Part shown: positions 29,439-35,458 of the stretch, piece by piece
How positions within the stretch are numbered: the first letter of the stretch is position 1
Layout of the letters: the number at the start of each line of letters is the position of its first letter
Origin: Puteibacter caeruleilacunae
GTDB taxonomy: Bacteria; Bacteroidota; Bacteroidia; Bacteroidales; Prolixibacteraceae
NCBI GenBank assembly: GCA_005217565.1
Contig: SJCO01000003.1
Location: 310,001 to 374,000, forward strand
DNA: 64,000 nucleotides
Direction: 5' to 3'
Translations under genes and position numbers: made by a program
The notes under the pieces: model-generated
What the model was told of the DNA's origin: nothing
What the model saw: only the letters and a program-made list of their open reading frames with translations
The model's database searches: none

Positions 29439-30959
29439 TTATATTTTAATGCCCCAAAATGGCATTTCTCCATCTGCAACAATCAATGAACGACCATTAT
29501 TGTCAACATCATTTTCATCATTTTCATCTAACGCGATTCTCTGTATATTTCTCTGCTCTGTTCCGGTATTATTGGTGTTCACAAAAATTATACTTCCTCC
29601 TGTCACTGAGAATCGAGGATTTATATCATTAGTGCCTAAAGGTTTCTGTGTAGATAAGTCCTCCTCCTCCGCAGTAGCTAACGTTTTAAGGAAAATATGT
29701 ACATCCAACTGCCTTCCATCTGTCGATTGTAGTTCACTCATATCTCTGGTATACAGAAGTTGCTTTCCATCGATTGAAAATGAAGGTTCTCCAATATGGC
29801 CAGGCAAATTATCCACTAGCATTTCAAAATTACTCCCATCACCATCCATCATATAAATCTCGGAGTCATAGGACTTCTCTCCAACAGTCTCCACTAAGAT
29901 CTTACCCGTATACTTATTCCAGTCACGTGCAATAAAGTGTCGACCTTCAGGAGCAGTCTTGATTAACTTCAAATCCGTTCCATCCTTCTTGATAGAATAC
30001 AACTTACTATATGACGAGAATAGTATCCGCTTCCCATCGGGTGACCAACAAATTCCCTCTCCATTGTTGAAATAGCCTTCATTCGGAAGATCCGTTACTC
30101 TCTGCACATTTTTACCATCTCTATCACATGTGTAAATATGATGATCCCCATCTGCATTTGAAGTATAAAGCAACTGATCAACATATTGAGGATTAATTAG
30201 AGGAAACCAGTTTCTATTGTTAGAAAACTTTGTCAATTGAGCTACCTGATCTCCATTTATATCTGTCGCCATTAACTGATAATTTCCATCTACTTTTCTC
30301 GCAAAAACTATTTCCAGACTCCGGGCACTTAACGTCCGAAAACTCCAGGTATCACTTTTCCATGTTTTATCATCTTTATTAGCTACCACATACCAGTGGT
30401 ATGTGGTATTCGAAAAAAGGCCCGACACCGTATATGTTGTATCCTCAAGATTCTCTACTATTAAGGTCTTATCAATAGCATCCTGATCAAACATAAATAC
30501 ATCATAGGTCACATTCTCAATTTTCTCAATTTCCGTGTGCCAGCTCAAATCTATTGCTACATCTGTATCCGCCATTCCATCTACCGGAGCAGGAATAGAA
30601 AAAATCACAGAACCTTGCAATTCTTCTTTCTCTAAAGTAAATTCAACTGTAGATGTCTCATCCTCCAGTACTTTTACTGAAATACTGGCTTGAATATAAT
30701 CCTTCAATGATGCAGCTACTGTAACATCTCCTAAAGGCACTTTATTCAATGTAAACATTCCCTCGGCATCAGTAAGTACTGCAGCACTAGCTGGTGTGGT
30801 AGATATACTCACTCCTTCCAACGGAGTATTATCGGAAGCACTCAGTACAACTCCCTGGATTGACCCAAAAAGCTCTACGTCAAGGGTACTATCTTCGCAT
30901 CCCCATAGACCGATCGACAATACCATCAATATGATTATTTTAAATTTAACGCGGTTCAT
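29439..30959 (-). CDS. Lipoprotein with CarboxypepD-like, Fn3-like and TolB-like propeller domains; last gene of the curli operon
   Basis: The 506-residue protein has a lipobox (LWGC, Cys21). A carboxypeptidase-regulatory-like domain follows (about 31-110, GSIQGVVLSASDNTPLEGVSI), then an Fn3-like segment (about 118-210, ending TTYHWYVVANKDDKTWKSD), then a six-bladed TolB-like propeller (about 212-506, with repeats such as QLLYTSNADGDHHIYTCDRDG and GICWSPDGKRILFSSYS). Its ATG overlaps the csgG stop by four bases (ATGA), indicating translational coupling. No counterpart exists in the E. coli csg operons. It may anchor, recognise or chaperone the fibre at the surface; that is inference. Confidence 0.8.
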   Translation of the reverse strand: MNRVKFKIIILMVLSIGLWGCEDSTLDVELFGSIQGVVLSASDNTPLEGVSISTTPASAAVLTDAEGMFTLNKVPLGDVTVAASLKDYIQASISVKVLEDETSTVEFTLEKEELQGSVIFSIPAPVDGMADTDVAIDLSWHTEIEKIENVTYDVFMFDQDAIDKTLIVENLEDTTYTVSGLFSNTTYHWYVVANKDDKTWKSDTWSFRTLSARSLEIVFARKVDGNYQLMATDINGDQVAQLTKFSNNRNWFPLINPQYVDQLLYTSNADGDHHIYTCDRDGKNVQRVTDLPNEGYFNNGEGICWSPDGKRILFSSYSKLYSIKKDGTDLKLIKTAPEGRHFIARDWNKYTGKILVETVGEKSYDSEIYMMDGDGSNFEMLVDNLPGHIGEPSFSIDGKQLLYTRDMSELQSTDGRQLDVHIFLKTLATAEEEDLSTQKPLGTNDINPRFSVTGGSIIFVNTNNTGTEQRNIQRIALDENDENDVDNNGRSLIVADGEMPFWGIKI

Positions 30960-32371
30960 TGCTCTGATTTTTTAGGATTATTTCTTTTTTTCTTACCTAG
31001 GTAAAAATTCACCCCTAGTTTTAACCCATAGTAGGTATCAAAGTACCGTCCCTGGTTTGCCGTATCATAGTTATCATCAAATAGTAAATTATAGTATCCA
31101 CTGAACTGAATACCTACTTTATTGCGAATCAAATATTCTACCCCCACTTCTGTATTCCCCTGGAAATAAACTGTTTTTGGTGGTGCATCTACCTTCTTAT
31201 TTTCGAGATTAATCATCGCACCTGCACCTACTGACAGATAGGGTGAGAAAGTGTATTTGGGTGTTAAAAAACACTTCATATTCAGGGTTGGAGCAATATA
31301 AGTATTCTCAAACAATTCTGGATATTGTAGCTTTCCGTAGGCACTCTGCAACTCCAACTGCCACGTATCAGTAAAACGATAACCAAACCGAAGTTCTCCC
31401 ATTGGCTGTACATCACCATAACCATAGTCTCCTCGATACTCTTGTCCTGCAACTCCAGCACCAATTACCCATTCAGGTTTACGATCGTTCTCAATTTTAC
31501 GACCAAATTGATCCATTGCCATATTGGCATCTTTCTCCAAATCATATTTTACAAAAGCCATTGCTGTAGAATCTGCAGGATTCTTCAGGCTCCACAACTT
31601 ACCTCTCACTCCTTCAAGAATCATACTTTCAACAGCCTTTTCAATAGCCTCAGTCACAGCCATCTCGGTTGGTTCATTATAGGTAAATCCTACTTCTGCT
31701 TCTAACAAGCGCTCAGTCTTTACATACTTAAAAATACCGGCTTTCATTTCTTGTGACAATAGCGACTTTGTACAATAAACTGTCTTTAGTACCTGTCCAT
31801 TGCTTGTAGACACAGCACGCAGATAAACAGTAACACGATCTTCCCTATACTGACCAGAACCTCCTACTCCAAAATACCTTAATCCTACTCCACCCGTTAG
31901 TATATTTGTCTCATATGAGATTATCCCTCCTTCCAAGATCACTCCAGCATAAAGTAAAGGAGGTATTCCTGGATCCTCTCCATTTGCATATTGCGTGCGA
32001 CTCGAACGAATGATCTTCCTCTCATTCAATAAATTACCTAAATTTTCTCGCTCTATTGGAATAAACCAATTTGATTCTTCCAAAGCTCGTATTAGGATCG
32101 TTGTTGCTCCTTGAGTAACTGCAGTCGACCAGTTAGATCCCATTTCTGACGGCTTATATTGCCCTGTTTGATCTCTAAATTTGTACACCGCAGCAACCAC
32201 TTTTTGTTGTGGTTCAGGCAGTGCCAGGAGTTCTTTTTTCACCGGTGTTTCAGGACCCAACCGAGCCCTTGAAGTCATCAAGGGTCGGTGCAAAGTGGGT
32301 CCACAACCGACCAAAAAAACACCTAAAGCTGCGATTGCAAGCAGCTTCCTGTTGGAAATTATGCTAATCAT
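30956..32371 (-). CDS. csgG: CsgG-type curli secretion channel fused to a C-terminal beta-barrel
   Basis: The 471-residue lipoprotein has lipobox LVGC (Cys23). Residues about 23-262 match CsgG: KVVAAVYKFRDQTGQYKPS, FIPIERENLGNLLNERKIIR, YAGVILEGGIISYETN, GGVGLRYFGVGGSGQYREDRVTVYLRAV written across about 160-187, and KTERLLEAEVGFT. E. coli CsgG is 277 residues and ends here. After a linker, about 299-471 is an outer-membrane barrel-like domain (amphipathic strands such as YLSVGAGAMINLENK and LKLGVNFYLGKKKR). CsgG assembles a nonameric pore for curlin export. The added barrel is a Bacteroidota-type extension of unknown purpose. Confidence 0.88.
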   Translation of the reverse strand: MISIISNRKLLAIAALGVFLVGCGPTLHRPLMTSRARLGPETPVKKELLALPEPQQKVVAAVYKFRDQTGQYKPSEMGSNWSTAVTQGATTILIRALEESNWFIPIERENLGNLLNERKIIRSSRTQYANGEDPGIPPLLYAGVILEGGIISYETNILTGGVGLRYFGVGGSGQYREDRVTVYLRAVSTSNGQVLKTVYCTKSLLSQEMKAGIFKYVKTERLLEAEVGFTYNEPTEMAVTEAIEKAVESMILEGVRGKLWSLKNPADSTAMAFVKYDLEKDANMAMDQFGRKIENDRKPEWVIGAGVAGQEYRGDYGYGDVQPMGELRFGYRFTDTWQLELQSAYGKLQYPELFENTYIAPTLNMKCFLTPKYTFSPYLSVGAGAMINLENKKVDAPPKTVYFQGNTEVGVEYLIRNKVGIQFSGYYNLLFDDNYDTANQGRYFDTYYGLKLGVNFYLGKKKRNNPKKSEQ

Positions 32372-32559: not shown

Positions 32560-32991
32560 TTAAATCTCAGGAATTAATACCTGCGACGATGATCCTGTTT
32601 TTACATCTTTAATGTTGATATACACCCCCCGACTGGTTTCACCAACTTCTATCTGATAATCTCCCAACAAATAATTGCCTTTCTCTAATCCCTCTGAACC
32701 TAGCTGCTCGTCAATTATTCGCCTACGTAATTCATCCATTACAGCTCTATTCAAATCGTCTGCAAAAGCCGCAACAGGATCTTCTTCATCAAAGAAGCTA
32801 GAAGAAGATGTTTGCGTAGTATGATTATTCTGAGCGTTGGCTGATGCCATCAACCAGGAATGATTAAATGAATCTCCTCCGAACGCCGGATTTACAGGCT
32901 TGTAAACAAAATCCTGTGCATGAAGATCCACACCTAACAATCCAACCAGGCTTATCAATAAACCTGTTATAAATAATAATTTTACCCTCAT
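32560..32991 (-). CDS. csgF: CsgF-type curli assembly factor
   Basis: The 143-residue protein has a signal peptide ending DLHAQ. The mature start DFVYKPVNPAFGGDSFNHSW is the CsgF signature, the peptide that inserts into the CsgG pore and forms its second constriction. The C-terminal half (GNYLLGDYQIEVGETSRGV to LIPEI) matches the extracellular head of the family. It is placed between csgE and csgG as expected. CsgF couples the secretion pore to the surface nucleator. Confidence 0.9.
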   Translation of the reverse strand: MRVKLLFITGLLISLVGLLGVDLHAQDFVYKPVNPAFGGDSFNHSWLMASANAQNNHTTQTSSSSFFDEEDPVAAFADDLNRAVMDELRRRIIDEQLGSEGLEKGNYLLGDYQIEVGETSRGVYINIKDVKTGSSSQVLIPEI

Positions 32992-33002
32992 AACATTTTC
33001 TT

Positions 33003-33599
33003 TTAAAAGATTCCGTTACCTATTTGGTCTTCATTCCCCAACATCTTCATAATTGCATCATAATTGGCGATAAATTGTGCACATCGCCCCATAGCTTGCT
33101 GACATAATGCTTCAATAACTGCTGATCGAGATTGGAGCATTGATTCAAACACCTTGGTGTCATTAATTGTAATCTGCAATTGTGTAGTAGAGGCTCGATA
33201 TGGTTTCTCTGTGATTGTAATCGTATAACTACGCTCCTTATTAGGAGTAGACCAATCGGTAATAAATTTTTCATAAAAATCACGTCCTGCCTTAGTTTTC
33301 GTTTCATCAACTATCAACTCATTTATTTCCATCTCGATTTCGGCATCTGATTTTGTCTTTTTCTTACTGTTCATTAATTGCTCCACAATATTTTTCAGCG
33401 CCTCAGGAGCAGGTTTGAACTTTTTGATCGCCGTAGAATCATTCACAATTGAATCTTTAGTCTGTGCACTTGCTGTAACTATAATTCCAGCCATTAGCAC
33501 GACAACAAACAATACCTTTTTTGCTAAGGAAAATTTCTTTTCCACCAAGTACCATTTCCAACAGTGTCGGTGACTATTATGGGTGTTCAATTGATCCAT
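33003..33599 (-). CDS. csgE: CsgE-type periplasmic curli adaptor
   Basis: The protein is 198 residues from the ATG at 33599. The first 24 residues precede a hydrophobic signal (KKVLFVVVLMAGIIVTASAQ), so the real start could be a downstream GTG or TTG. The CsgE core is clear: ELIVDETKTKAGRDFYEKF, then YTITITEKPYRASTTQLQI and AVIEALCQQAMGRCAQFI. CsgE caps the CsgG pore and delivers curlin. It overlaps the upstream curlin-repeat gene by 23 bases and precedes csgF by 11. Confidence 0.87.
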   Translation of the reverse strand: MDQLNTHNSHRHCWKWYLVEKKFSLAKKVLFVVVLMAGIIVTASAQTKDSIVNDSTAIKKFKPAPEALKNIVEQLMNSKKKTKSDAEIEMEINELIVDETKTKAGRDFYEKFITDWSTPNKERSYTITITEKPYRASTTQLQITINDTKVFESMLQSRSAVIEALCQQAMGRCAQFIANYDAIMKMLGNEDQIGNGIF

Positions 33600-34095
33600 T
33601 GTTTATGATTAACTTCATACCTACCCCTTTCTGTGTAATCATCAGTTTTGGATAGTGGTTACCATTTTCATTAACCGTTACTTCGTGGAAACTTCCCTGC
33701 TGGAATATTGCATGCATTAAACTTCCAGAAAGATCTTGTTTTGCACGATTTTTATAGCCATCCTGAACAACATAGTTCTCAATTTGAGGTCCATGCATGT
33801 TGGTCAGAATCTCGTTCTCATCGCCATCCTGAATAGCGACCATCTCATTCCCTGAATTATATTGTTTTATTGAAATAGTGTTCTTGTTGCCATGTTGCAA
33901 TAAGAATAGTTTATTTCGACACTCAGTATGTTGATCTAATTGCAAATTCAAAGGTTCCAAATATTGCTGAGTCACCTCTTGAATAAATAGCTCTTTGCTC
34001 CAATCTGTTATTATTTCTTCTTCGCCATCTTGAGCCAAACAATTGAAACAACTAATTGAGGTCACAACTAGGAATAATGTCAATAATCTTTTCAT
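33577..34095 (-). CDS. Minor curlin-repeat protein (CsgB-like nucleator candidate)
   Basis: The 172-residue protein has a signal peptide ending FNCLAQ. After about 40 residues it shows four to five degenerate curlin repeats of the Q-x-G-x-x-N type: LFLLQHGNKNTISIKQYNSG, EMVAIQDGDENEILTN, YVVQDGYKNRAKQD, AIFQQGSFHEVTVNENGN. The C-terminal MITQKGVGMKLIINNGS resembles the ends of CsgB repeats. Short length and fewer repeats than the neighbouring curlin suggest the nucleator role, but CsgB identity is inferred from position and pattern only. Confidence 0.72.
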   Translation of the reverse strand: MKRLLTLFLVVTSISCFNCLAQDGEEEIITDWSKELFIQEVTQQYLEPLNLQLDQHTECRNKLFLLQHGNKNTISIKQYNSGNEMVAIQDGDENEILTNMHGPQIENYVVQDGYKNRAKQDLSGSLMHAIFQQGSFHEVTVNENGNHYPKLMITQKGVGMKLIINNGSIEHP

Positions 34096-34213: not shown

Positions 34214-35458
34214 CTAGTGCTGATGAATCCAACTCTTATTATCATGTCCTCGTTGCTGAACTCTAACAACGCCATAACCTTCACTTATTACATCAGATTC
34301 ATTATCTCTTCCCATCTGTAATACTTGTGCAAAATTGTGATCATCAAATTGCTTAATATCAACATCATTGTCACAACCAACTTGGAATACACCCCAAGTT
34401 ATTTCACCTCTCATCAATAATCTACAGCAGTCTGTTTCTACACAAGGCATACAACCAACAAAGTTGTCATCACCTTCCTGTAAAACAACAGCTTTATTAC
34501 CTTCTCCTCTTTTCTGATTGATAGTCGCCTGGTTATCATCCCCTATTTGAGTAGTTTTGGCATATTGATCCCTACTTGATTGAACAGTTAATGCTTTATT
34601 ATCATCTCCATCTTGAATTTGAGTTGCTTCATTATCTTCTGGATTAACAACTCCTCCGCGACCATGAACAGTTGTCTGAAGAATTACTGCAGTATTATCA
34701 TCACCATCCTGATCCTGTTTTGCAAAATTCTTATATCCGAAATCTTGTCTTATATACGCAATATTGTCATCACCATCTTGATATTGATAAGCTTTATTGT
34801 TATGATCACTTCCTTTCTCCATGCTATTAAATTGATGAACTATTGCCACATTATCATCACCAATTTGCTCTTGAAAAGCGTAATCGTTAATATCAACAAA
34901 ACCACCACATCTATATCCTCGTGGAGACATCTGCTTAATACAAGCAAAGTTATCCTCTCCATCTTGTGTTTGTTTTGCATAGTTTTCTGCACCTTGCTGT
35001 AAAATTAACGCAAGATTGTCATCACCTTTTTGCTCTTGATATGCATCATTCTCCTTACCTTTCTGCCAGATAATTGCTCTATTGTCATCACCTGAGCCTT
35101 CCTGATACTGCTTAGCATAGTTATCATGGCCTCTTTGCCAAACGATGGCCAGATTATGCTTTCCTCCAACTTGTTCTTGTTTTGCTTCATTTCCCATTCC
35201 TCGTTGCCATGCTGAGGCATAATTAAACTTAGACATGTCAAATTTACAAGGAGAGCAAGGTGGTTCCCAATAGAAGTCTTCCTCACAGAAGTTAGTAAAA
35301 CATGGAGGCATTTCTTCAAATTCTGGCATATACCAATAATTTTCCCATGGTGGAGGTACACATGGATCTCCTGGATCTTGTGGAGGACAACAATCACCAT
35401 TTGCATATACTGCAGCTCCTAGTGCCATAACCACGATTAACATTAATAATTTTTTCAT
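34214..35458 (-). CDS. Major curlin-type amyloid subunit with Cys/Pro-rich head (CsgA-like)
   Basis: The 414-residue protein has a signal peptide ending AAVYA. It is followed by a Cys/Pro-rich segment of about 60 residues (DCCPPQDPGDPCVPPPW, then CFTNFC and PPCSPCK). From residue about 80 come roughly 13 curlin repeats of 22 residues, consensus N-x-A-x-Q-x-Q-x-G-x-x-N-x-A-x-x-x-Q-x-G. Many turns read GDDN (QDGDDN). E. coli CsgA has five repeats and no cysteine; this one has 14 cysteines, including a GCMPCVETDCC insertion near the 11th repeat. It should be exported through CsgG and polymerise as surface amyloid. Confidence 0.88.
   Translation of the reverse strand: MKKLLMLIVVMALGAAVYANGDCCPPQDPGDPCVPPPWENYWYMPEFEEMPPCFTNFCEEDFYWEPPCSPCKFDMSKFNYASAWQRGMGNEAKQEQVGGKHNLAIVWQRGHDNYAKQYQEGSGDDNRAIIWQKGKENDAYQEQKGDDNLALILQQGAENYAKQTQDGEDNFACIKQMSPRGYRCGGFVDINDYAFQEQIGDDNVAIVHQFNSMEKGSDHNNKAYQYQDGDDNIAYIRQDFGYKNFAKQDQDGDDNTAVILQTTVHGRGGVVNPEDNEATQIQDGDDNKALTVQSSRDQYAKTTQIGDDNQATINQKRGEGNKAVVLQEGDDNFVGCMPCVETDCCRLLMRGEITWGVFQVGCDNDVDIKQFDDHNFAQVLQMGRDNESDVISEGYGVVRVQQRGHDNKSWIHQH

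Follow-up and report, generated by a model that had tools for sequence, protein, structure and literature searches.

What holds curli together is hydrogen bonding and packing; the locus described here raises the question of what role 14 cysteines and a ladder of acidic turns could play in a curli subunit. The gene lies in a window (the whole stretch of DNA that was analysed) of 64,000 nucleotides from Puteibacter caeruleilacunae. The protein and its parts are encoded as follows.

34214..35458, minus strand: main curlin (CsgA-like), 414 residues with 14 cysteines; ORF with an ATG start, assigned by Pfam PF07012
35402..35458, minus strand: predicted signal peptide, residues 1–19 (MKKLLMLIVVMALGAAVYA), read by eye, no lipobox seen
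35225..35401, minus strand: head, residues 20–78, delimited by composition and by a model confidence (pLDDT) below 50 over mature residues 1–56
34217..35224, minus strand: 13.5 curlin repeats, residues 79–414, ending in a strand-a half repeat (repeat parse; 26 strands in the model)
34466..35095, minus strand: acidic arc-2 ladder of R2–R10, reading EGSGDD, KGDD, DGED, IGDD, DGDD (three times), IGDD and EGDD (repeat parse)
34883..34930, minus strand: arc-1 insertion of R5, residues 177–192, holding C184 (repeat parse)
34370..34465, minus strand: degenerate repeat R11, residues 332–363, with C336, C339, C344, C345 and C362 (repeat parse)

The curlin identity of the product is settled. The 414-residue ORF matches the Curlin_rpt family (PF07012) with an E-value of 4.8e-30 and 103.6 bits against a cut-off of 20.7. 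This is its sole Pfam match at E 1 or better, and no metal-site family was matched. The protein contains 15 QxGxxN motifs in tandem curlin repeats (X6QXGX2NX10), and scores 67 bits, against a curated cut-off of 160, with the E. coli-type CsgA equivalog NF007470, to which it is thus not assigned. The RTX class is defined by RTX nonapeptide repeats; the repeat here is the curlin 22-mer, according to both Pfam and the repeat parse, and the protein is not an RTX or Ca2+ beta-roll protein. A PHROGs search gave no match, and PDB matches to poxvirus envelope proteins (E 0.037–0.059) were taken for chance. The signal peptide is predicted to be cleaved after residue 19. A search of the whole genome with PF07012 listed four matches, all inside this ORF; that search omitted the small curlin described below and may likewise have passed over further curlins that are weak or short. 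In protein searches of the same genome, the large curlin and the small one were each located at a single site. The product is supported as the main fibre candidate, since the genome yielded no second large curlin, and any fibre that is made should be built from it.

The gene heads a csg operon, predicted from gene order, with five further genes downstream on the same strand.

33577..34095, minus strand: small curlin in the CsgB position, 172 residues, one cysteine after the signal peptide (PF07012, 1.1e-4; single copy)
33003..33599, minus strand: CsgE (PF10627, 4.8e-18)
32560..32991, minus strand: CsgF (PF10614, 1.1e-32)
30956..32371, minus strand: CsgG, 471 residues (PF03783, 1.6e-67)
29439..30959, minus strand: CarboxypepD_reg/PD40 protein (Pfam), putative lipoprotein by eye

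The C-terminal part of this CsgG weakly resembles an outer-membrane beta-barrel (OMP_b-brl, 1.2e-4, below the cut-off). A csgG tblastn match of more than 1200 bases is found in 130 of 138 csgG loci, which makes the longer form of CsgG the rule in these Bacteroidota. Among the 133 Bacteroidota csgG loci with more than 2.5 kb downstream of csgG, 108 carry a CarboxypepD_reg/PD40 gene within 1.5 kb after csgG on the same strand; this gene is apparently a standing, unnamed component of Bacteroidota curli operons.

Each repeat was split into strand a, arc 1, strand b and arc 2, as in PMC10192328. A preliminary description, made from the DNA alone, counted about 13 repeats of 22 residues. The count stands, while the length applies in part, nine repeats having 21–24 residues and four having 29–33. 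Insertions occur in R5, R6, R8 and R11, all of them at arc 1, and R11 is degenerate in strand a too. The contrast drawn with the five repeats of E. coli CsgA loses its force against published curlins, for which PMC10192328 gives a range of 4–62 repeats with maxima at 5, 7–8, 15 and 22.

Most turns had been described as (Q)DGDDN. GDDN is present in eight of the 13 arc-2 turns (three of them reading DGDDN) and in no arc-1 turn. Arc 2 is acidic at 27 of 55 residues and arc 1 at 18 of 93, with the arc-1 side charge-balanced (18 acidic residues and 18 K/R/H). If the solenoid is regular, the subunit would thus have one acidic edge and one insertion-bearing edge. When compared with 231 curlin ORFs that have at least seven motifs, the main curlin exceeds the maximum in its share of GDD turns (0.44 vs 0.23), its share of acid-acid turns (0.50 vs 0.405) and its acids per turn (1.75 vs 1.64). 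In total Asp+Glu it ranks high, though 4 of the 231 have as much or more; its net charge per residue is unremarkable (50 of the 231 are as negative or more), and Lys/Arg in its turns is above the median (17 of the 231 have as much). Recent tandem duplication as the source of the GDDN turns was rejected: the 11 in-register units share a mean base identity of 52% (maximum 74%), a comparison of 13 units, two of which are out of register, gives a mean of 49%, and TRF finds no array with the period of the curlin repeat. With unit identity as low as this, the acidic turns look kept rather than freshly copied.

The best match of the main curlin, in sequence and in structure, is the solved curlin R15.5 of Pontibacter korlensis (PDB 8c50; sequence match 6.3e-20). 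An AF2 model based on 30 aligned rows contains 26 strands and is of moderate quality (mean pLDDT 61.6, pTM 0.53); a model from the single sequence (pLDDT 33.3) was useless. Foldseek with the former returned nothing at E 0.001 or better, 8c50 being at rank 30 with E 1.3. In a second structural look over the Foldseek candidates, 8c50 was placed first (Z 31.1, 284 residues, 35% identity, rmsd 8.3), followed by a Ca2+-dependent antifreeze solenoid, 3p4g (Z 20.4, rmsd 2.9, 249 aligned residues, 10% identity). Because AF2 predicts solenoids too readily when given perfect repeats (PMC11795689), the model is taken as agreeing with the family fold and no more. Homology to 8c50 together with the model supports the stacked beta-solenoid that had been expected of the monomer. 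The pLDDT falls below 50 at mature residues 1–56 (the head) and 319–333 (the greater part of the R11 insertion), and the model is therefore uninformative on the cysteine clusters.

The 14 cysteines are at residues 23, 24, 33, 53, 58, 68, 71, 173, 184, 336, 339, 344, 345 and 362, and include CSPC, CMPC and CC clusters. Residue positions and composition confirm that seven lie in a Pro-rich head directly after the signal peptide. This head of 59 residues contains 13 Pro, 7 Cys, 12 aromatic, 12 acidic and 2 basic residues, and is probably flexible, as its low model confidence suggests. The other seven had been assigned to three insertions, which needs correction: only two of the four insertions hold cysteines, while C173 is in strand a of R5, just before the R5 insertion, and C362 is in arc 2 of R11 (the turn after it). 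The head (seven) and R11 (five) together account for 12 of the 14 (binomial 1.3e-6, with the regions picked post hoc).

To place these features, curlins were surveyed at 154 Bacteroidota loci, 74 from whole genomes and 80 from named genomes, with ORFs obtained from 150. ORFs with at least four Q.G..[ND] motifs were kept and those with fewer left out, a simple rule decided the start of each, and identical ORFs were counted once. The sample is uneven: the loci, a part of the matches listed for the phylum, were chosen for the best match to PF07012, a curlin or CsgF, Chryseobacterium accounts for 49 of the 80 named loci, and some named loci repeat whole-genome ones. The view that curlins normally lack cysteines is mostly right, as 241 of the 292 distinct ORFs have none in the mature part; the remainder have some, eight have at least four, the maximum is nine (in a partial ORF), and none reaches 14. 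At the mean rate of the compared curlins, about 0.44 cysteines would be expected in 394 residues. Among heads of at least 25 residues, only one other, at locus L097, was called with at least two cysteines; inspection by eye indicates a miscalled start there, its three cysteines being in and before the signal region. When the whole curlin was searched against the named genomes, no relative turned up. Literature searches, judged partly from titles and the starts of abstracts, gave no recognisable description of natural Cys-rich curlins: the main text of PMC10192328 has 'cystein' twice, both times for engineered mutants, and that of PMC3521004 is without the term. In an order-level relative (f149), curlins at three loci (L098, L099, L100) have CC and CxxC motifs, and several f149 curlins end near a CxxC (YCAGCQQ, YCGGCQ), recalling the CxxC of FapC. 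The cysteine load and turn acidity of the main curlin are extremes of a known kind, and a repeat number of this size is not new.

R15.5 is the closest guide to how such a subunit could assemble. Like the main curlin, it is long, ends in a half repeat, has surface acidic residues and forms a beta-solenoid (PMC10192328); it differs in having 15.5 repeats and no cysteine in the aligned stretches (chain 8–112 and 104–338). Its subunits stack by a two-fold screw and it has an Asp/Glu grid (PMC10192328). We tentatively favour, as plausible though short of probable, a reading in which the product is the main curli subunit, is exported reduced, stacks by a screw, is joined between head and R11 by a cross-link or a metal, and holds cations on its acidic edge. 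In this model, the subunit would be secreted via CsgG, CsgE and CsgF with its cysteines reduced, and stacked as a beta-solenoid into the main curli fibre. The terminal half repeat suggests a two-fold screw, as in R15.5. The first strand of the next subunit would then enter from the arc-1 edge of the preceding one, putting its head on the same edge as the R11 cysteine cluster of its neighbour, 2.5–3 repeats or ~12–14 Å away. With a rise of 4.8 Å per repeat, the subunit rise would be ~65 Å, and R1 and R11 within one subunit would be 48 Å apart. Outside the cell, disulfides or shared metal ions may join the clusters, giving a covalent chain or sideways links between fibres. Both the head (seven) and R11 (five) hold odd numbers of cysteines, and R5 holds two; all 14 could be paired by three bonds within the head, two within R11 and one within R5, plus one bridge, so a bond between head and R11 would be the simplest solution.

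The acidic arc-2 edge may hold divalent cations. The Ca2+ idea is not new in this respect, since a cation-bridged acidic grid was already put forward, as a hypothesis on packing, for R15.5, the Pontibacter curlin (PMC10192328). According to the same paper, R15.5 with 30 mM CaCl2 and phosphate formed no sheets, and single fibrils became encrusted, hypothetically with calcium phosphate; simple Ca2+ bridging is therefore not favoured. Both the stapling and the ion binding of the main curlin are inferred.

CsgG takes unfolded substrates. A cystine-locked curlin probably would not pass or polymerise, and for this reason export is placed in the reduced state. The engineered two-cysteine variant CsgA-CC illustrates the difficulty: its oxidised form stayed in solution for about three months, and colonies of E. 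coli that made it were white and had no curli (PMC7264389). CsgA-CC resembles the main curlin in having a cysteine pair and a redox state that controls fibre formation; unlike it, CsgA-CC is man-made and has two cysteines. Among single-cysteine variants, A63C gave white colonies and no curli, and V140C gave red colonies and curli (PMC7264389), so a cysteine can harm curli even without a partner. CsgA fusions that are secreted include those with single-domain antibodies, whereas fusions with mCherry, Bla and alkaline phosphatase are not (PMC6302416).

The redox context leaves room for a different use of the same thiols. DsbB was not found in any of the 12 genomes searched, including the one studied here; among control genomes, 6 of 14 gave a match. 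This fits export in the reduced state without proving it, and keeps metal binding as a serious rival. In an anoxic or sulfidic habitat the thiols would then remain in the reduced form, with CC and CxxC binding soft metals and the Asp ladder binding Ca2+, and the fibres would form a metal-holding matrix, not a disulfide network. We regard this as possible, if somewhat unlikely. It draws on the CSPC, CMPC and CC clusters, the acidic ladder, the second place of the Ca2+-dependent solenoid 3p4g in the structural comparison and the finding of VKOR solely in a fusion protein; the lack of any matched metal-site family speaks against it, odd cysteine counts in a flexible, Pro-rich context define no site, and similarity of fold shows no function. 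VKOR itself was rejected as a partner of the curlin: the copy in this genome is a C39–VKOR–thioredoxin fusion, and among the 22 other curli genomes VKOR occurs in 5, of which 2 belong to the 7 that have Cys-bearing main curlins and 3 to the remaining 15, so that no clear association with such curlins is seen. The gene for the C39 peptidase–VKOR–thioredoxin fusion (L183 976–2595) adjoins a glycosyltransferase-like ORF, as seen by eye. DsbD-like proteins are present, as in 10 of the 14 control genomes.

The head could also act independently of the other cysteines, as a Pro/Cys/aromatic/acidic sticky surface tail present once per subunit, with those in the repeats being incidental. Its low model confidence, its 12 aromatic and 12 acidic residues and its position before the amyloid core all suit such a tail. 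E. coli CsgA shares with the main curlin the curlin repeat and export by CsgG, CsgE and CsgF, and differs in its five repeats, the absence of cysteines (PMC7264389) and the N22 targeting sequence that stands where the main curlin has its head (PMC10192328). An adhesive tail leaves the five cysteines of R11 unexplained, and no homologous sequence was found in the family. The main curlin has a protein match in 17 of 140 family genomes, its own included, and no relative of the same genus was found among the 140. Searches of these genomes with the head alone gave matches at E 1 or better in 44, its own included (best other 9.4e-4), and no credible second copy; translation of three of the weak matches (L185, L186, L188) gave no reading rich in both Cys and Pro. 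The adhesive explanation is judged unlikely. The proposed search of Bacteroidota curlins for the same head thus ended without a relative carrying a multi-Cys head, in the survey and in the 140 family genomes. Relatives that lack the Cys head and form normal fibres had been named as evidence against a stapled amyloid; as regards the head, the other family curlins that were read do lack a multi-Cys one.

The nearest relative by CsgG is genome G103, from the same family (54% identity; sister with 99/96 support). Of its curlin copies, one carries a Pro-rich head with a single cysteine, in CPP, and the other, cut at its start, has nine cysteines, six of them in the last 66 residues. These curlins thus resemble the main curlin in the Pro-rich CPP head, the C-terminal cysteines of the other copy and the sister CsgG, and differ in having one head cysteine instead of seven. 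The two copies (L034 2–832 and L035 13055–13867) lie at contig ends, each cut at the opposite end, and are identical at 594 of 656 aligned bases; they are perhaps tandem paralogues or strain variants broken by the assembly. Elsewhere, main curlins with six, four and two cysteines occur in G112, G113 and G115, respectively, curlins with eight and seven in G720 and G804 (from another family of the order), and a 90-residue curlin piece with four in G621. The family is probably Prolixibacteraceae (Bacteroidota), as the curlin ORF of G112 is identical to one of Prolixibacter bellariivorans (L044, L148) and, of about 273 60-mers sampled from the G043 locus, 228 are also present in Draconibacterium sediminis.

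This distribution bears on neutral drift, by which a fast-evolving curlin would have gained functionless cysteines in a head and insertions free of constraint. Cysteine positions differ between relatives, and curlin length and insertions vary greatly (PMC10192328), both of which are expected under drift; against it, 14 cysteines far exceed the expected number, and Cys-bearing curlins cluster on the CsgG tree. That tree has 43 rows, namely 42 of 53 chosen loci (11 were dropped for no hit, a stop or short length) and the locus studied here. The label, at least two cysteines in the main curlin, was set by hand; the small curlin of G670, with two cysteines, is in the tree unlabelled, and G755 (with the five-cysteine ORF of L097) and G061 (with one two-cysteine curlin among four) are absent. 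The eight labelled rows require three changes, as few as in none of 500 shuffles, although near-copies alone make the label clustered, and one origin followed by losses would also be possible. Cys-bearing curlins appear to recur in three separate CsgG clades, with the present one the extreme of those read, and drift is considered distinctly unlikely. Least probable is a redox gate, with periplasmic disulfides keeping the subunit soluble so that it polymerises only where reduced: CsgA-CC provides an in vitro precedent (PMC7264389), yet it gave no curli in E. coli, and no DsbB was found.

Returning to the screw-stacked, cross-linked or metal-joined subunit that we favour, a functional amyloid with cysteines has a parallel outside the curlin family. 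FapC of Pseudomonas has a conserved CxxC outside its core, which is anticipated to aid polymerisation and inter-fibre stability (PMC6173800); it belongs to a different family and uses a different secretion system.

If the favoured reading is correct, this would be a natural amyloid fibre whose subunits are cross-linked or bind metal ions. A more far-reaching version, which we hold to be doubtful, is that each fibre is one cross-linked chain, with the head joined, once exported with reduced thiols, to the preceding R11 by disulfide or metal and the acidic edge mineralised or bridged by cations, and that Cys-rich curlins had more than one origin in Bacteroidota, as a way of hardening biofilm amyloid. 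The earlier work on engineered CsgA-CC gives a direct route to testing the question. If a natural curlin polymerises while carrying 14 cysteines, it would reveal how thiol-rich amyloid leaves a cell through CsgG, and would offer a ready-made covalent or metal-binding curli scaffold.
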